Shown one piece after another: positions 25,123 through 32,487 of a stretch of DNA of 33,399 nt. Each line of letters starts with the position of its first letter. Position 1 is the stretch's first letter. The translations under genes were made by a program, and so were the position numbers. Where the stretch lies: the NCBI GenBank assembly GCA_022763735.1, contig JALEQY010000115.1, forward strand, positions 1 to 33,399, given 5' to 3'. Source of the DNA: Clostridiales bacterium. Lineage in GTDB: Bacteria; Bacillota; Clostridia; Peptostreptococcales; Anaerovoracaceae. The notes beneath the pieces are model-generated. The model ran no database searches and was not told the DNA's origin. It worked only from the letters and a program-made list of their open reading frames with translations.

Positions 25123-25548
25123 TCATATCTTGCCGCAGTAACTGCAGCTTCCATGGCCGCAGCCTTTTTTACTGTCACAGCTCTCTGTCATAGGGCATAC
25201 AACATAGTTTCCACCGTTTATGTAAAGAAACCTGCTGTCTATCAGTGCAAGAGCCAGTTTCTTTCTGGCTTCATTGTACACCACCTGCACTGTCGTTCTG
25301 GCAACGCCCATCTGCTGTGCGCACATTTCCTGATTATATCCCAGATAATCTATCAGCCGGATCGTCTCATATTCATCGAAGGTCATTTCCACTGCGTCAT
25401 GTACATCTCGATATGCCTCCTCAATATTCTGCATGGTACCTGCTCCGGTGCTCTCACAGTCAGGTTCGGCAGCACTCTGATTCATAGGTCCGAACCGGCA
25501 GCACTTCGGAATTCCGCATATTTTTCTGCATTTTTTAGGTCTCGGCAT
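25123..25548 (-). CDS. DUF134 (UPF0251) DNA-binding protein with cysteine-rich tail
   Basis: Putative regulator of 141 residues. The N-terminal MPRPKKCRKICGIPKCCRFGP is the DUF134 signature. A sigma-like helix-turn-helix follows (MTFDEYETIRLIDYLGYNQEMCAQQMGVARTTVQVVYNEARKKLALAL). The C-terminus carries cysteines 118, 124, 130, 135 and 138 (CPMTESC, GCGHGSCSYCG), so eleven cysteines in all suggest a metal or Fe-S site. DUF134 genes often neighbour nitrogenase-type cofactor proteins (NifX/NifB-like); none is seen here. ATG 25548 is chosen because a GGGGGAAAA sequence precedes it. Confidence 0.88.
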   Translation of the reverse strand: MPRPKKCRKICGIPKCCRFGPMNQSAAEPDCESTGAGTMQNIEEAYRDVHDAVEMTFDEYETIRLIDYLGYNQEMCAQQMGVARTTVQVVYNEARKKLALALIDSRFLYINGGNYVVCPMTESCDSKKGCGHGSCSYCGKI

Positions 25549-25671
25549 TTTTCCCCCGCCTTTCTGCATTTCTGACTTATGTCATAATTATAACATTTTA
25601 ATGAGCCAGCAGCAATATATCATACGCACACAAATTTTCCGTAAAAACTTTGTAAAAAATACAAAAAACAC

Positions 25672-25700
25672 TTTACAGTCTAGAATTAAAGTGCTAGAAT
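25672..25700 (+). promoter_or_regulatory. Promoter of the aromatic amino acid operon
   Basis: TTTACA (25672-25677) and TAGAAT (25695-25700) have exactly 17 bp between them. Transcription would start near 25707, about 60 nt ahead of the leader peptide. Confidence 0.7.
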
Positions 25701-25765
25701 AACTGTTAAATATGGTGTCTGATTATTATCAGCAGCGAAAGAATTTATAACGGAAGGACAGAAAC

Positions 25766-25852
25766 ATGTTATTCAGAGCATTTGCAGCAGCATATTATTA
25801 CTTTTACTTTACTTTCTTTAGGAGTAAGGTGAATTTCGCTGCAACGAGATAG
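25766..25852 (+). CDS. Phe/Tyr-rich leader peptide controlling the aromatic operon
   Basis: A 28-codon frame with GGAAGG 8 bases before its ATG. It encodes MLFRAFAAA, then YYYFYFTFF, then RSKVNFAATR. Eleven of 28 residues are Phe or Tyr (7 Phe, 4 Tyr), eight of them within nine consecutive codons, and none is Trp. It is followed by an intrinsic terminator and then an operon for Phe and Tyr synthesis. This is the signature of a leader peptide whose translation stalls when charged tRNA-Phe or tRNA-Tyr is scarce. GGTGAATT near the end of the frame (25828-25835) can pair with AATTCACC inside the terminator, giving an antiterminator. Confidence 0.85.
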   Translation: MLFRAFAAAYYYFYFTFFRSKVNFAATR

Positions 25853-25883
25853 CTGATCTGTTCAAGACAAACTGAGTCAACTA

Positions 25884-25919
25884 AACTCCGCAGGTGGAAT
25901 TCACCGGCGGAGTTTTTTT
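25884..25919 (+). terminator. Attenuator terminator before the DAHP synthase gene
   Basis: AACTCCGC (25884-25891) pairs with GCGGAGTT (25907-25914). An inner GGTG/CACC stem adds four pairs, and the T-run follows directly. The loop-side AATTCACC (25898-25905) is complementary to 25828-25835 in the leader-peptide frame, so the terminator and the alternative pairing exclude each other. Confidence 0.85.
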
Positions 25920-25943
25920 ATGCAGAAAGAAAGAGGTAATAAA

Positions 25944-26954
25944 ATGATCGTAGTATTAAAGGACAATCCTGATGAGAAACAGCTTAACAATCTGGTATCA
26001 TGGTTAAAGAGCATGGGACTTGATATCCATTTCAGCAAAGGTCAGTCTGCCACAATAATGGGACTTATAGGCGATACCGCTTCAGTGGATATCGACCTTA
26101 TCAACTCCCTTGATATCGTAGAAACAGTAAAACGTGTACAGGAACCGTACAAAAATGTAAACAGAAAATTTCATCCGGACGATACAGTAGTTGAAATTGC
26201 TCCCGGAGTAAAAATCGGCGGCGGCAATTTCCAGGTTATCGCAGGTCCGTGTTCAGTAGAATCAGAGGAACAGGTCTGTGAAGTCGCATCAGCCGTAAAA
26301 GAAGCCGGTGCCGGCCTGTACAGAGGCGGCGCATTCAAGCCGAGAACCTCACCGTATGCTTTCCAGGGTATGAGAGATGAAGGTATCAAGCTTCTGCTGG
26401 AAGCAAAAAAGAAATCAGGTCTTCCTATAGTTACTGAAGTAATGGATATTTCGCATCTGCCTCTGTTTGAAAATGTGGATGTCATCCAGGTTGGTGCCAG
26501 AAATATGCAGAACTTCGAGCTTCTCAAGGAACTTGGTCATCTGAAAAAACCTGTTCTCCTCAAAAGAGGACTATCAAGCACACTCAAAGAACTCCTGATG
26601 AGTGCCGAATACATCATGGCAGGCGGCAATGAAAACGTAATCCTCTGTGAGAGAGGCATCAGAACATTCGAAACAGCCACAAGGAACACCCTTGATCTGG
26701 CATCAATACCTCTTCTCAAGACAATGACACATCTGCCTGTAATAGTAGACCCGAGTCATGCCACCGGTATCGCACACCTCGTCAAGCCGATGGCAATGGC
26801 CGCTACAGCTGCAGGAGCAGACGGACTTATGATTGAAGTCCACAACAATCCTGCATGTGCGCTTTGCGACGGCGCACAGTCGCTGACACCTGCGGACTTC
26901 ACCGACGTGATGGAAGCGGTAAACCTCATCAGACCGGTAGCTTACAAAGGATAG
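25944..26954 (+). CDS. aroF: 3-deoxy-7-phosphoheptulonate (DAHP) synthase, type I-beta
   Basis: First enzyme of the shikimate pathway: joins phosphoenolpyruvate and erythrose 4-phosphate. 336 residues. An N-terminal ferredoxin-like domain (about 1-65) of the kind that senses feedback inhibitors is followed by the barrel with [50 protein letters not shown] and DPSHATG, the I-beta pattern. ATG 25944 has AGAGG 7 bases ahead; an earlier in-frame ATG at 25920 touches the terminator T-run and has no binding site. First structural gene after the Phe/Tyr attenuator. Confidence 0.96.
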
Positions 26955-26964
26955 AGGTGGTATC

Positions 26965-27804
26965 ATGGAAATAGGAATAGTCGGACTGGGTCTTATAGGC
27001 GGTTCCCTTGCCAAAGCCATCAGTCAGAATACAGACCACACAGTATACGGAACGGATCTTTCAGAGCAGGTAGTCAGAAAGGCAGTACTTGTTGATGCTA
27101 TTGAACAGCCCCTCACAGATGAGCTGCTGCCACAGTGCGACATCGTGATTGTGGCACTTTACCCTCAGGCAACCATAGATTATGTAAAAGAACATGCGCA
27201 CCTGTTCAGAAAGGAATCCATCGTCGTTGACTGCGGCGGCATCAAGAAGCTCGTATGCGACACGCTCATCCCTCTGGCAGAAGATCATGGTTTCCTTTTT
27301 GTAGGCGGACATCCGATGGCAGGGCTTGAGCATTCAGGCTTCACATATGCGAAGAAATCACTCTTTAATAATGCGTCGATGATTTTCACACCGACAAAAG
27401 GACCCATCGAAAGCATGGAAAAGCTCAAGGAGCTGTTCACGTCCATCGGTTTTACAAATATAGAAATATCAACAGCTGAAGAACACGACAGAAAAATCGC
27501 CTTTACATCACAGCTGGCACACGTCGTGTCCAACGCATACATCAAGAGCCCTACTGCCCTAGAGCACTCAGGCTTTTCTGCAGGAAGCTACAAAGACCTC
27601 ACCAGAGTCGCCAAACTCAATGAAGTTATGTGGACTGAGCTTTTCCTGGAAAATGCGGACAACCTGGCTGCGGAAATCGATACCCTTATCGGAAATCTGC
27701 AGCAGTACAGCACAGCCATCAGAGAAAGAGACGCAAAAACACTCTGCGCACTCCTTAAAGACGGCAGAGAAAAGAAAGCACTTATAGACGGAGAAATATT
27801 CTAA
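26965..27804 (+). CDS. tyrA: Prephenate dehydrogenase
   Basis: Oxidatively decarboxylates prephenate to 4-hydroxyphenylpyruvate on the tyrosine branch; 279 residues. The Rossmann motif GLGLIGGSLAKA is at the N-terminus. GGHPMAGLEHSGF carries the family's HPMAG motif. The C-terminal part is helical (LAHVVSNAYIKSP, GSYKDLTRVAKLNEVMW). There is no C-terminal ACT domain, so feedback by tyrosine, if any, must act elsewhere. GAGGTGG precedes the ATG, 10 bp after the DAHP synthase stop. Confidence 0.95.
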   Translation: MEIGIVGLGLIGGSLAKAISQNTDHTVYGTDLSEQVVRKAVLVDAIEQPLTDELLPQCDIVIVALYPQATIDYVKEHAHLFRKESIVVDCGGIKKLVCDTLIPLAEDHGFLFVGGHPMAGLEHSGFTYAKKSLFNNASMIFTPTKGPIESMEKLKELFTSIGFTNIEISTAEEHDRKIAFTSQLAHVVSNAYIKSPTALEHSGFSAGSYKDLTRVAKLNEVMWTELFLENADNLAAEIDTLIGNLQQYSTAIRERDAKTLCALLKDGREKKALIDGEIF

Positions 27805-27818
27805 GGAGATTGGTATCT

Positions 27819-28940
27819 ATGATAAAAATTTCGGTTTCAGCCTCAAAACAATATAATGTGATTATGGAAAAAGGACTCATGGCTTCTTCAGGCGACTATA
27901 TCAAAGAAGCCTTTACTCTCAAAAGCGACCCTGTTACCGGAAAAATCAGAAACAAGAAACTCTGTATTGTAACCGACGCCAACGTGGACGCCCTTTACGG
28001 CGGCTGTGATCAGGCGCTGCAGGCTTCTCTCTCTGCCGCCGGTTTTGATATTTACAAATATGTCTTTGACGGCGGTGAAGAAAACAAAAATATGAAAACC
28101 ATCTGCGGGATTCTGGATTTTCTGGCAAATAACAAATTTACACGAAGTGATCTGCTTCTGGCACTCGGCGGCGGCATCACAGGAGATGTCACAGGCTTCG
28201 CTGCGGCGACCTACCTGAGAGGCATCGATTTCATCCAGGTCCCTACCACTTTGCTTGCCATCGTGGATTCGTCCGTCGGCGGCAAGACGGGTGTCAACCT
28301 GAATGCCGGCAAAAACCTCGCCGGCGCGTTCTGGCAGCCGGGTCTCGTCTTATTTGACCCGGACGTGCTTGACACCCTTTCGTATGACATTAAACTGGAC
28401 GGCATTGCTGAAGCCATCAAGGCGGGAGCAATAGCTGATCCTGAAATAATAGATATGATAAGAAACAGCACAGCTGCAGAAGATCACGGTTTTCTCATGG
28501 AAATCGCGGCCAGAGCCATCAGAGTCAAAAGAAAGGTAGTTGAAGAAGATGAGCGTGATCACGGCAGCAGACAGCTTCTGAATTTCGGCCATACTCTGGC
28601 TCATGCCATCGAGAAGTGCAGCAGTTTCTCCATCAGTCACGGCCACGCTGTCGCCATCGGCATGGACATTGTTTCTGCCGCTTCACAGAAATCAGGCTGG
28701 TCAGATGAAAGCTGCTCTGGTATTATAACGGAAACACTTGAAAAATTCAGTTTCCCTCTGAAATGCCCTTTCAGTGCCAGGGAACTTACAGAAGCAGCTT
28801 TGCAGGACAAAAAAATCCGCGGGGCCGAAATCACTCTGGTCATACCGGAGGCTATCGGCAGATGCGTACTCAGAACCATACCGGTAGAAGACCTCGAATC
28901 TTTTATATCCTGCGGTCTGCAGAGCAGAAAGGATAAATAA
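27819..28940 (+). CDS. aroB: 3-dehydroquinate synthase
   Basis: Converts DAHP to 3-dehydroquinate using NAD and a divalent metal; 373 residues. Family motifs are GGGITGDVTGFAAATYLRGI, QVPTTLLAIVDSSVGGKTGVN, KNLAGAFWQP, the metal-binding NFGHTLAHAIE and SHGHAVAIGM. ATG 27819 is preferred over an in-frame TTG at 27810, because AAGGAG lies 10 bases before the ATG but touches the TTG. Its stop is followed at once by the aroA start. Confidence 0.96.
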   Translation: MIKISVSASKQYNVIMEKGLMASSGDYIKEAFTLKSDPVTGKIRNKKLCIVTDANVDALYGGCDQALQASLSAAGFDIYKYVFDGGEENKNMKTICGILDFLANNKFTRSDLLLALGGGITGDVTGFAAATYLRGIDFIQVPTTLLAIVDSSVGGKTGVNLNAGKNLAGAFWQPGLVLFDPDVLDTLSYDIKLDGIAEAIKAGAIADPEIIDMIRNSTAAEDHGFLMEIAARAIRVKRKVVEEDERDHGSRQLLNFGHTLAHAIEKCSSFSISHGHAVAIGMDIVSAASQKSGWSDESCSGIITETLEKFSFPLKCPFSARELTEAALQDKKIRGAEITLVIPEAIGRCVLRTIPVEDLESFISCGLQSRKDK

Positions 28941-30206
28941 ATGAACGTACTTATAACCCCCTCAAAACTGCAGGGATGTATCGAGGCAATTCCGTCAAAA
29001 TCCCATGCACACCGCGTGCTCATAGCTCAGAAGCTGGCGCAGCTGCAGGGACAGAATAAAGCTGATCGGATTGATGTCCCCACATTTTCCGAAGACATAG
29101 GGGCCACAAAAAACTGCCTTGTTCAGCTTGACAAGGAAATGCCGTACCTCGACTGCAAAGAAAGCGGTTCCACCCTCCGCTTCATGCTTCCTGTCGCTAT
29201 GGCTCTCAAGAACGAAGCCGTTTTTATCGGCACCGGAAAACTGCCCTACAGACCCATTTCACCTCTCAAAGAAGAAATGGAGAGTCACGGCTGCAGTTTC
29301 CGCATGGGAAGCAAAGATCAGAAGGTAAGCGATAAGTACAAGGAAATCTGTACTATCAGTGGCAGACTGCAGGCCGGCACATATGAACTCGCCGGCAATG
29401 TCAGTTCCCAGTTCATAACAGGACTTCTGTTCGCACTGCCTCTCCTTGACGGAGACAGTGAACTGAGGCTCACAACAAAGCTTGAATCTGCAGGCTATGT
29501 GGATCTGACCCTTGATGTTCTGAGAAGTTTCGGGATAGAAATCATCGAGAGGACTTCTGAAGAAGGTTTCATTATATATGAAATACCGGGAAATCAGCAT
29601 TATATTGAACCTGATGGACTCACTGTCCAGGGAGACTGGTCAAATGCAGGGTTCTGGCTGGCATGCGGTGCCCTGGGAGGTGATATAACCCTAACAGGTC
29701 TTGACATGAACTCCTCCCAGAGAGACAAGGAAATAATCAGCATACTAAGAAGCATGGGAGCAGATATCACCATAGCGGCAGATGGCGCGATAACCTGCAG
29801 AGGGAACGGACTCAGAGGCACTGAGGTAAGTGTCGCACAGATTCCGGACATAGTCCCGGTTCTGGCCGCAGTCATGTCCCAGGCATCCGGCGCTTCGATG
29901 ATAACAAATGCCGAACGGCTTAAAATCAAAGAATCCGACAGACTTAAGACAGTATATGACTTTCTGACAAGACTTGGAGCAGACATCACCTATGCAGGAG
30001 CAGGCCTTTCCCTCACAGGCAGACCGATCCTTGATGGCGGCGAAGTATCCAGCCACAACGACCACCGAATAGCAATGGCTGCAGCAGTCGCATCATGCGG
30101 ATGCAGCAGCCCTGTCATTATACACGGGGCTGAAGCAGTCAGAAAATCATATCCCGGATTTTTCAGGGATTTCGCTGCACTGGGCGGCAATGTAAAGGAG
30201 ATCTGA
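28941..30206 (+). CDS. aroA: 3-phosphoshikimate 1-carboxyvinyltransferase (EPSP synthase)
   Basis: Transfers the enolpyruvyl group to shikimate 3-phosphate; 421 residues. Motifs: PSKSHAHR with the catalytic lysine, ESGSTLRFMLP, LAGNVSSQFITGLLFALPLL, QIPDIVPVLAAVMSQ, RLKIKESDRL and NDHRIAMAAAVA. The glyphosate-region loop reads SGSTLRF in place of the NAGTAMR of class I enzymes, a form common in Clostridia. The ATG directly follows the aroB stop, with AAAGGA inside the end of aroB, so translation is probably coupled. Confidence 0.96.
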   Translation: MNVLITPSKLQGCIEAIPSKSHAHRVLIAQKLAQLQGQNKADRIDVPTFSEDIGATKNCLVQLDKEMPYLDCKESGSTLRFMLPVAMALKNEAVFIGTGKLPYRPISPLKEEMESHGCSFRMGSKDQKVSDKYKEICTISGRLQAGTYELAGNVSSQFITGLLFALPLLDGDSELRLTTKLESAGYVDLTLDVLRSFGIEIIERTSEEGFIIYEIPGNQHYIEPDGLTVQGDWSNAGFWLACGALGGDITLTGLDMNSSQRDKEIISILRSMGADITIAADGAITCRGNGLRGTEVSVAQIPDIVPVLAAVMSQASGASMITNAERLKIKESDRLKTVYDFLTRLGADITYAGAGLSLTGRPILDGGEVSSHNDHRIAMAAAVASCGCSSPVIIHGAEAVRKSYPGFFRDFAALGGNVKEI

Positions 30207-30212
30207 ACAATT

Positions 30213-31343
30213 ATGAAATCAACTTTTGGTAAAAATATCAGAGTATCGATATGGGGCGGCTCTCACGAACCTGCTATAGGTGTGGATATAAGCGGCATTA
30301 CTGTCGGCACAAGAATAGATATGAATCAACTGGAAACATTCCTTAAAAGACGTGCCCCGGGGAACAACCCTTTTGGTACAAAACGCAGGGAACCGGATAT
30401 ACCGGTACCTGTCAGAGGACTCGCACCGTCAGAGGTTCCTGAGCCTGACGGATCCGCAGACTCGCGGATCATGACAGTCACAGAGCCTGATATATCCCTG
30501 GAAATACGCAACACTGATACTCGATCATCGGACTACAGATCGCTGAGGACAGTTCCCCGTCCCGGACATGCGGACTACACAGCCCGACTCCGATACGGCG
30601 ATGATCTGAACATGGCAGGCGGCGGACCTTTCTCTGCCAGAATGACTGCACCCTTATGCATAGCAGGAGGAATCGCACTGCAGATTCTAAAAGAGCAGGG
30701 AATCGAGATCGGTGCACATATATATTCGATCGGAGATATCACCGACACACCGATTGACCCGGTGGATCCCGATATTCGGACACTGCACGAAATCAGAACA
30801 GCAGACCTTGCTGTTATATCAGATGACGCCAGACAGGAAATGGAAGCCTGCATCACCAGAGCCGGCGAGGAGCTTGACTCTGTCGGCGGCACTGTAGAAG
30901 CATGCGTTGTAAACCTGCCGGGAGGAATAGGCGGGGCCATGTATGATGGACTGGAAAGCGTACTTGCTCCGATTCTTTTCGGAATACCTGCAGTCAAAGG
31001 CGTGGAGTTCGGCGCAGGATTCGGTGCATCAGAGCTGCGCGGCTCAGAAAATAATGATCCTTTTTACTATGACAGCGGCAGAGTAAAAACACGTACCAAC
31101 AACCATGGAGGAATCCTGGGAGGAATTACAACGGGCATGCCTCTGATTGTCAGACTCGCATTCAAGCCCACCCCGTCCATAAGCCGCCAGCAGGATTCGG
31201 TGGATCTTGAAACCGGAGAAAACACTAAACTTGTTGTCAAGGGCAGACACGACCCTTGCGTTGTGCCAAGGGCAGTTCCTATCGTTGAAGCGGCTCTTGC
31301 CATTGGAATTCTTGATTGTATGATGGAGGTAAACAATGACTGA
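30213..31343 (+). CDS. aroC: Chorismate synthase
   Basis: Makes chorismate from EPSP with reduced flavin; 376 residues. Recognised by SHEPAIGVDISGI, RRAPGNNPFGTKRREPD, RPGHADYTARLRYG, NNHGGILGGITTGMP, FKPTPSISRQQ and GRHDPCVVPRAVPIVEAALA. The segment after RPGHAD reads GGGPFSARMTAPLCIAGGIA instead of the RASARET form of many bacteria; I take this for a lineage variant. AAGGAG precedes the ATG, 6 bp after aroA. The gene overlaps pheA by 8 bp. Confidence 0.95.
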   Translation: MKSTFGKNIRVSIWGGSHEPAIGVDISGITVGTRIDMNQLETFLKRRAPGNNPFGTKRREPDIPVPVRGLAPSEVPEPDGSADSRIMTVTEPDISLEIRNTDTRSSDYRSLRTVPRPGHADYTARLRYGDDLNMAGGGPFSARMTAPLCIAGGIALQILKEQGIEIGAHIYSIGDITDTPIDPVDPDIRTLHEIRTADLAVISDDARQEMEACITRAGEELDSVGGTVEACVVNLPGGIGGAMYDGLESVLAPILFGIPAVKGVEFGAGFGASELRGSENNDPFYYDSGRVKTRTNNHGGILGGITTGMPLIVRLAFKPTPSISRQQDSVDLETGENTKLVVKGRHDPCVVPRAVPIVEAALAIGILDCMMEVNND

Positions 31344-32487
31344 AGTAACACTTGATAAACTCAGAAACGATATAGACCAGATCGATACACAGCTTACCGA
31401 CCTGTTCAGGGCTCGTATGGAAAAATCCCTTGAAGTAGCGAAGTATAAACAGGAGCACAACGTTGCAGTTCTCAGTGACAGACGCGAGAAGGAGATCCTT
31501 CACAAGGTATCTGAACAGATCGGCGAACCGTATGACGGATATGCAAGGCTTCTCTTCAATACTATTTTTGATGCCAGCAGATCCTGCCAGAACAATTATC
31601 TGGCAAGACGCTCGGATCTGGCAGAAAGAATCGACAAAGCCCTCTCCGAAACACCTACACTTTTCCCTAAAAAAGCTGTAGTTGCCTGCCAGGGTGTCGC
31701 AGGATCCAACTCGCAGGCTGCATGCGAGAAACTCTTTGAAGTGCCGAGCATAATGTTTTTCAACAGCTTCGAAGGTGTATTCAATGCTGTGGAAAAGGGT
31801 CTCTGCCAGTACGGTATTCTCCCTATCGAAAACAGTTCCTACGGTTCTGTCGGCACAGTATATGACCTGATGCAGAACTACAACTTCCATATTGCCAAAA
31901 GTCTTCGCCTGCGCATCAACCATAACCTTATGGCAAAGCCGGGTACCAAGCTCAGCGATGTCAGAGAAATCTTCTCCCATGAACAGGCAATCGGACAGTG
32001 CGGAGAATTTCTCAAGGGTCTCAAGGATGTGAAAATCACTGTATGTGAAAACACGGCTCTTGCTGCCAAAATGGTGGCAGACAGCGACAGAACAGATGTT
32101 GCCGCTATATCATCCATGGAATGTCTTGATCTTTATGGTCTGGAGCTTCTCAAAAAACATATCCAGACCAGCGACAACAACTATACAAGGTTTATCTGCA
32201 TTTCCAAAAAACTGGAGATATATCCAGGTTCCAACAAGATCAGCCTGATACTGTCACTGCCTCACAGCCCGCGTTCACTTTACCATGCGATCGCTAAATT
32301 CGCAGCGCTGGGTGTCAACCTGACAAAGCTGGAATCAAGACCGATTCCGGGCAGCGACTTCGAATTCATGTTCTACTTTGATCTGGAAGCCTCCGTTTAT
32401 TCGCCGGAGCTTATCAATCTGCTGAGTGAACTGGAGAATCAGCCCGAAACCTTCGTGTTCCTGGGCTGCTATACAGAAACCATTTAA
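31336..32487 (+). CDS. pheA: Bifunctional chorismate mutase / prephenate dehydratase
   Basis: Carries chorismate through prephenate to phenylpyruvate, the committed steps to phenylalanine; 383 residues. The AroQ-type chorismate mutase is at the N-terminus (about 1-85: LDKLRNDIDQIDTQLTDLFRARMEKSLEVAKYKQ). The prephenate dehydratase domain (about 110-290) has GILPIENSSYGSVGTVYD and TRFICISKK. A C-terminal ACT domain with LESRP (from about 300) usually gives feedback inhibition by phenylalanine. It starts within the end of aroC after GGAGG, so it is coupled. Control is thus probably double: enzyme feedback and leader attenuation. Confidence 0.96.
   Translation: MTEVTLDKLRNDIDQIDTQLTDLFRARMEKSLEVAKYKQEHNVAVLSDRREKEILHKVSEQIGEPYDGYARLLFNTIFDASRSCQNNYLARRSDLAERIDKALSETPTLFPKKAVVACQGVAGSNSQAACEKLFEVPSIMFFNSFEGVFNAVEKGLCQYGILPIENSSYGSVGTVYDLMQNYNFHIAKSLRLRINHNLMAKPGTKLSDVREIFSHEQAIGQCGEFLKGLKDVKITVCENTALAAKMVADSDRTDVAAISSMECLDLYGLELLKKHIQTSDNNYTRFICISKKLEIYPGSNKISLILSLPHSPRSLYHAIAKFAALGVNLTKLESRPIPGSDFEFMFYFDLEASVYSPELINLLSELENQPETFVFLGCYTETI

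Follow-up and report, generated by a model that had tools for sequence, protein, structure and literature searches.

The stretch between positions 25672 and 25943 of the window (by which we mean the whole 33,399 nucleotides of Clostridiales DNA analysed) raises the question of which signal admits RNA polymerase into the shikimate, phenylalanine and tyrosine operon behind it. An original prediction, made from the letters alone, had placed a ribosome-mediated Phe/Tyr attenuator there. Our analysis confirmed that the leader is real and that it contains, in this order, a promoter, a GGAAGGA sequence, a 28-codon open reading frame (ORF), a 30-nt spacer and a terminator running into seven T residues, followed by aroF (Table 1). 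Judged from these parts and from their counterparts in relatives, it is very probably a classical system of ribosome-mediated transcription attenuation. The promoter, the 28-codon frame with its good binding site and its YYYFYFTFF run, and the intrinsic terminator all stood as they had been described. The promoter of the window taken alone is not above chance (3 sites found in this stretch vs 2.8 expected); a similar promoter recurs in relatives, where, among 103 of 108 leaders (those with less than 130 nt upstream being left out), a best-promoter score of at least 10 of 12 was reached by 83, with a mean of 10.3 vs 8.0 in mononucleotide shuffles. Purine-rich stretches precede most of the relatives' leader ORFs too. 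The terminator has a predicted energy of -20.5 kcal/mol (z -5.2), matched by none of 200 shuffles, and a simple terminator scan of the stretch did not list it; it is no evident genome repeat, occurring exactly at one place and with two mismatches at two others, besides its own reverse. Just upstream of the operon promoter lies a divergent gene for a small protein, with weak NCBIfam matches to the hypothetical protein PRK04217 and to a sigma-70 domain, both below cut-off.

Table 1. Coordinates of the leader, of the operon, of the divergent neighbour and of the T-boxes ahead of a second aroF in relatives (locus handle before the colon).
Feature	Position	Strand	Basis or remark
Divergent small protein	25123..25569	-	weak NCBIfam matches
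Promoter TTTACA-17-TAGAAT with TG extension	25672..25700	+	sequence; counterpart in relatives
Ribosome binding site GGAAGGA of the leader ORF	25752..25758	+	7 nt before the ORF
Leader ORF, 28 codons, MLFRAFAAAYYYFYFTFFRSKVNFAATR	25766..25852	+	translation; conservation
Sensing codons YYYFYFTFF (4 Tyr, 4 Phe, 1 Thr)	25793..25819	+	translation
Region 1, aromatic codons pairing with 25821-25833 (1:2 helix)	25803..25815	+	folds; covariation
Outer 1:2 extension, GCAGC with GCTGC	25787..25791 with 25838..25842	+	folds; covariation
Region 2, GGTGAATTTCGCTGC, antiterminator 5' arm, within the leader ORF	25828..25842	+	fold; covariation
Region 3, antiterminator 3' arm, overlapping the inner half of the terminator hairpin	25890..25905	+	fold; covariation
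Intrinsic terminator (stem 25883-25915, T tract 25913-25919)	25883..25919	+	fold; covariation
aroF, DAHP synthase with N-terminal regulatory domain	25944..26954	+	NCBIfam PRK08673; aligns from first residue with 4grs, 1rzm
tyrA, prephenate dehydrogenase	26965..27804	+	best matches below curated cut-offs
aroB, 3-dehydroquinate synthase	27810..28940	+	NCBIfam
aroA, EPSP synthase	28941..30206	+	NCBIfam
aroC, chorismate synthase	30213..31343	+	NCBIfam
pheA, chorismate mutase-prephenate dehydratase	31336..32487	+	best matches below curated cut-offs
T-box before second aroF	L195:192-458
T-box before second aroF	L196:160-420
T-box before second aroF	L197:166-432
T-box before second aroF	L198:1228-1501	-

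The six genes behind the leader, aroF-tyrA-aroB-aroA-aroC-pheA, bear out the shikimate-Phe-Tyr operon that had been proposed, and they make the very amino acids, phenylalanine and tyrosine, that the leader codons specify; aroF, aroB, aroA and aroC score above their NCBIfam cut-offs, and tyrA and pheA were named from matches below theirs. Translation of aroF most likely begins at ATG 25944 rather than at ATG 25920, since most relatives align only from residue 5-9 onward and the solved DAHP synthase chains align from the residue encoded at 25944. The former ATG has an AGAGGT of its own, and the latter lies at the end of the terminator T tract. Across its N-terminal domain the enzyme aligns with 1rzm, which we take to be the DAHP synthase of Thermotoga maritima. 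In the T. maritima DAHP synthase, ACT domains are described as forming the sites for tyrosine (PMC5493349), and the enzyme type encoded in the window would fit a leader that reads Phe and Tyr.

The regulatory decision would be taken between three helices, 1:2, 2:3 and 3:4, which are mutually exclusive because the Phe and Tyr codons themselves form the arm 1 that pairs with region 2. The original prediction had pointed to an 8-bp complement (GGTGAATT at 25828-25835 with AATTCACC at 25898-25905) that would break the terminator; this complement is present, but it is only the core of an antiterminator of 15 pairs (25828-25842 with 25890-25905), about twice the length then given. By folds and covariation, the antiterminator excludes the terminator and begins directly behind the sensing codons. 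Taken alone, the window's 2:3 duplex is unexceptional (28 of 200 shuffles of region 2 were at least as good); in single folds of the stretch, z was -2.8 with 2:3, 2 of 200 shuffles being as good, and -1.2 with 1:2, for which 20 of 200 were.

From the parts, their conservation and covariation and their association with these genes, we infer a course of events that depends on translation of the leader, on stalling and on kinetics. When charged tRNA-Phe and tRNA-Tyr are plentiful, the ribosome would reach the stop codon and cover region 2, the terminator 3:4 would form and no aro-tyr-phe mRNA would be made. Were either charged tRNA scarce, the ribosome would stall within YYYFYFTFF and block region 1, leaving region 2 free to capture region 3 as it emerges; once 2:3 had formed, the terminator could not, and the six-gene operon would be transcribed. 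A leader left untranslated could form 1:2, and termination would be the default. The stall geometry was modelled on the assumption that the ribosome covers the RNA up to 12 nt beyond the first base of its A-site codon. In a transcript ended after region 3, a ribosome stalled no further than codon 17 leaves 2:3 with a predicted pairing of 0.98-0.99, which drops to 0.84 at codon 18 and is 0 from codon 22. In the full-length RNA at equilibrium, the terminator is preferred at every stall position and 2:3 reaches at most 0.12, so that antitermination would have to be kinetic; in the truncated transcript without a ribosome, 2:3 is still predicted at 0.78 and outweighs 1:2, so that predicted energies alone leave the default-off state unsupported. 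The modelled geometry fits attenuation, the outcome of which would have to rest on the order of transcription, as is likewise the case in known attenuators.

Alignment of the upstream regions of orthologous operons, which had been suggested as a check, yielded both conserved aromatic codons and covarying alternative stems, in support of attenuation that senses Phe/Tyr. The regions were gathered from the best 80 of 594 GTDB relatives, from 30 near-relative loci including the window, from 40 further loci of genus and family searches (including the best 30 of one search) and from two viral contigs, and 150 of them were distinct; because the loci are the best of longer lists of relatives, the leader frequencies apply to near relatives. 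In 113 of the 150 distinct loci, aroF is preceded by a short ORF in which F, Y or W make up at least five of nine residues, and no such aromatic ORF was found there in 37; the two aroF loci from the viral collection are distant, and both lack the leader. In an earlier set, an ORF with at least six of nine F/Y lay upstream of aroF in 66 of 103 loci; dinucleotide shuffles gave 1.2 per 103, and the opposite strand 2 of 103. A chance ORF was rejected on these figures. With the same threshold, a control on other genes gave 16 of 387, of which 11 were aroF itself, one a pheA leader (L101) and four unexplained; a first gene control (5.4% of 926) contained aroF and was set aside.

L031 and L101 had been dropped as duplicates; for closer analysis, L011, L060, L093, L023 and L129 were left out of the 113 as implausible ORFs, which gave 108 leaders. 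A terminator-like hairpin follows in 94 of them (3 of the 94 being weaker than -10 kcal/mol); the hairpin finder gave no terminator in 12, and 2 have no room for region 2. In a frame test, which bears on translation indirectly, codon differences among 22 leaders numbered 718 synonymous to 2638 nonsynonymous in frame, vs 242 to 2617 and 526 to 2286 in the shifted frames, a modest contrast. Compared with shuffles in single sequences, the 2:3 duplex has z of -2 or below in 30 of the 94 leaders and of 0 or above in 8 (mean -1.5), and the 1:2 duplex in 65 and 10, respectively (mean -2.3). The single-sequence duplexes are thus only moderately better than shuffles.

Aligned leaders have compensatory changes in all three helices, best for 2:3. 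The alignment holds 35 of 37 rows, L147 and L149 being left out as they did not align, and its 2:3 structure was drawn by hand from the window fold, with one bulge set by eye. Standard pairs fill 91.2% of the 2:3 cells in the 35 leaders, vs 31-50% when the arms are slid by 1-3 columns, and in 8 of the 15 pairs both partners have changed (score 0.330 vs 0.224 shuffled). For 3:4, 78.2% of the cells are paired and 10 of 13 pairs doubly changed (0.270 vs 0.163), and for 1:2 the values are 76.2% and 15 of 22 (0.246 vs 0.196). All three helices exceed every slide in cells paired and in score, and the covariation score of each was reached by none of 500 shuffles, which ignore relatedness. Weaker measures were the number of doubly changed pairs in 2:3, reached in 25 of 500 shuffles, and the number of pair types in 1:2, reached in 57 of 500; 1:2 slid by -2 has an equal count of doubly changed pairs and more pair types. 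Inspection by eye shows joint changes of region 2 and the terminator loop in divergent rows, L135 and L152 among them.

That both Phe and Tyr are sensed seems likely to us. In the same build, an attenuator might respond to a single amino acid, the other codons serving only to make arm 1 rich in U, and the Phe codons of the 108 cores lend something to this unlikely alternative: UUU outnumbers UUC by 287 to 48, vs 28 to 51 in the operon genes of the window, an excess that probably reflects the demands of the RNA helix on the choice of codons. Against a single amino acid speak the nine-codon cores themselves, 104 of 108 of which contain Phe as well as Tyr (in all 335 F, 375 Y and 11 W), in an order that varies among leaders, as well as the about equal use of the Tyr codons (192 UAC, 183 UAT) and the fact that the operon makes both amino acids.

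T-box leaders (RF00230) respond to the charging of tRNA and work through a terminator; their RNA binds the tRNA directly and has no ORF, whereas the leader of the window, which would share the charging sense and the terminator, has one. It is very improbable that a T-box, a riboswitch or a protein-binding terminator/antiterminator acts here and that the ORF is accidental, although the same genome has six T-box matches and a second aroF lies behind a T-box in four relatives: shuffles yield far fewer aromatic ORFs at this position, and the window matches nothing in Rfam 15 at gathering score. On the latter ground a T-box or other Rfam class was rejected for the leader; no Rfam T-box match was found anywhere in the window, and at E up to 10 the leader has five Rfam matches, all far below gathering score and none of them a T-box, a riboswitch or a leader family (Phe_leader and others).

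The peptide leader and the T-boxes would instead divide the aromatic amino acids between them. The six T-box matches elsewhere in the window's genome (E of 2e-11 or better, all below gathering score) stand before asnB, leuA, ileS, a sodium symporter gene, a TrpB-like gene and trpE; the T-box of locus L112 lies on the minus strand ahead of leuA, with ilvB divergent. In the T-boxes of trpE and the TrpB-like gene, Infernal puts UGG in the columns that we take to hold the specifier, and for this reason Trp is probably sensed by T-boxes; in one and the same genome, Trp would probably be read by T-boxes and Phe and Tyr by the peptide leader. This genome has a single aroF match. Four genomes of the same family have a second aroF (55-57% identity) directly behind a T-box (L195-L198), found in a search of 16 chosen genomes, so that the count is no frequency. 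In these T-boxes, Infernal puts UUC where the L199 T-box has UGG, and UUC may be a Phe specifier. The other aroF has a peptide leader in three of the four (G255 at L143, G111 at L141 and G143 at L145).

That the peptide might act by nascent-chain arrest or translational coupling, not by hungry codons, is suggested by conserved residues outside the run, FAA before it and KVNFAA after it, and SAG in a second type of leader. In type A leaders, however, these residues coincide with the paired GCAGC/GCTGC and with region 2, and in the related aroF leaders SAG is nearly fixed at the codon level (Ser as AGC in 10 of 10, GCT in 8 of 10), which points to a constraint on the RNA. As the conserved codons are paired or nearly fixed in this way, and a terminator stands between the ORF and aroF, we set this explanation aside as hardly probable, and hold to stalling at Phe and Tyr codons.

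The second type of leader mostly carries a YYFSAG-like motif and also occurs, in longer form, before aroF in more distant genomes. In relatives of the same genus with aroF at 65-68% identity, the operon begins with pheA, and in 7 of 8 distinct pheA-first loci (L006, L008, L009, L010, L012, L125 and L127; terminators judged by eye, unscored) a related leader (e.g. AAYFGFTFQGYYFSAG) stands ahead of pheA, followed by a hairpin and a T run. L011 is the one without a leader before pheA; L101 duplicates L006, L007 and L128 have no pheA upstream, and L126 is cut by a contig end and stands outside the 8. The element thus sits in front of the operon irrespective of its first gene. Loss of the leader was rejected for the same-genus relatives that lack it before aroF, as they are mostly pheA-first and have the related leader there instead.

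Among known systems, the enterobacterial pheA leader (pheL) joins a Phe-rich leader peptide to 1:2/2:3/3:4 switching in Phe biosynthesis. The leader of the window shares the peptide and the RNA switching, whereas pheL serves Phe and pheA only, and neither the common pathway nor Tyr. The view behind the original prediction, that Firmicutes mostly use T-boxes or protein regulators, calls for a correction: leader peptides for His in bacilli (PMC2965389, PMC4833913) and a Leu attenuator peptide of the S. aureus ilv-leu operon, with genetic support (PMC5794164), have been published. The former are described as regular leader peptides in Firmicutes that replace a T-box and differ by their His codons and by serving hisS/hisZ (PMC2965389); the latter resembles the leader of the window in its peptide rich in one amino acid, Leu, its terminator and its biosynthetic operon in a Firmicute, and differs in serving branched-chain amino acids and in its combination with CodY (PMC5794164). 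Closest by position is the uORFC-13-1 motif, found before aroF in Acholeplasma, for which attenuation at a Phe uORF was proposed (PMC8632094). As described there, its short uORF likewise has one or more Phe codons that stem from a run of U, a promoter is present and a terminator lies just before aroF, and another base-paired substructure is mentioned; the motif differs in that its 24 sequences come from Acholeplasma and from environmental samples of unknown organisms, and the description, by which alone the two were compared, gives no mixed Phe+Tyr run (PMC8632094). In the relevant passages of a survey of Actinobacteria, no RNA element is reported ahead of the operons for phenylalanine or tyrosine in that group (PMC1262725), and a search by term of the main texts of two structured-RNA surveys gave nothing on aromatic leaders (PMC8040213, PMC2864571).

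Leader-peptide attenuation in Firmicutes and a Phe uORF before aroF are thus already published, and none of the literature matches listed describes a Phe/Tyr leader before aroF in Clostridia; since subscription journals lay mostly outside the scope of the search, an earlier description is possible. As to the surmise that such a mixed leader is unusual and may be undescribed, the leader is not confined to this organism and recurs across many families. To judge from its sequence, the element looks like a real, conserved and textbook-like attenuator, unusual in its double specificity and in its position. If this reading is correct, many Clostridia, for which one would usually expect T-boxes, would have classical leader-peptide control at the entry to aromatic biosynthesis; the leader would tell which amino acids gate the aromatic pathway there, and would let a common unannotated 5' region be annotated. 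A genome with a peptide leader for Phe/Tyr and T-boxes for its Trp genes would further be a natural test of the choice of RNA sensor.

How far the element extends was followed with a covariance model of helices 1:2 and 3:4, which holds no aroF coding sequence. In the window's own genome it gave this leader as the sole strong match (143 bits), the next being one of 32 bits on the opposite strand, overlapping the 3' end of the leader, and one of 24 bits elsewhere. Under strict filters, it matched 30 of 391 genomes drawn from the class. In 27 of the 29 non-window loci fetched, aroF is next on the same strand, starting -3 to 83 nt behind the match, and in all 27 tyrA or aroB is the following match after it; the other two (L191, L193) are weak and have no aroF. 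Sensitivity is low, as 28 of 55 loci were found, two of them training rows; in the leaderless loci, 1 of 38 was matched at E below 0.01, namely L125, before pheA. By these matches, the leader element appears in many families of the class and is not peculiar to the organism of the window. Named carriers include Sporobacter termitidis (L073), Anaerotignum neopropionicum (L079), Emergencia sp. (L080), Angelakisella massiliensis (L034) and Yanshouia hominis (L049). On balance we favour the view that these leaders form an unnamed, Clostridia-wide class of attenuators with an interleaved Phe+Tyr run, which would gate the whole shikimate pathway, ignore Trp, stay at the operon head whether aroF or pheA comes first, and share the pathway with T-boxes for the Trp genes and, in relatives, for a second DAHP synthase.

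Some of the loci carry taxonomic labels that deserve comment. The aroF upstream regions of L031 and L120 are identical, as are those of L101 and L006; L031 and L101 are contigs of metagenome-assembled genomes (MAGs) labelled Clostridiales, and L120 and L006 are genomes of the same genus. In L040, L041, L047, L052, L060, L066, L095 and L109, an aroF 66-71% identical to that of the window occurs in MAGs labelled Thermoguttaceae, Spirochaetia, Planctomycetia, Treponema, Spirochaetales, Lentisphaerae or Bacteroidaceae, which would reflect either mis-binning or gene transfer.
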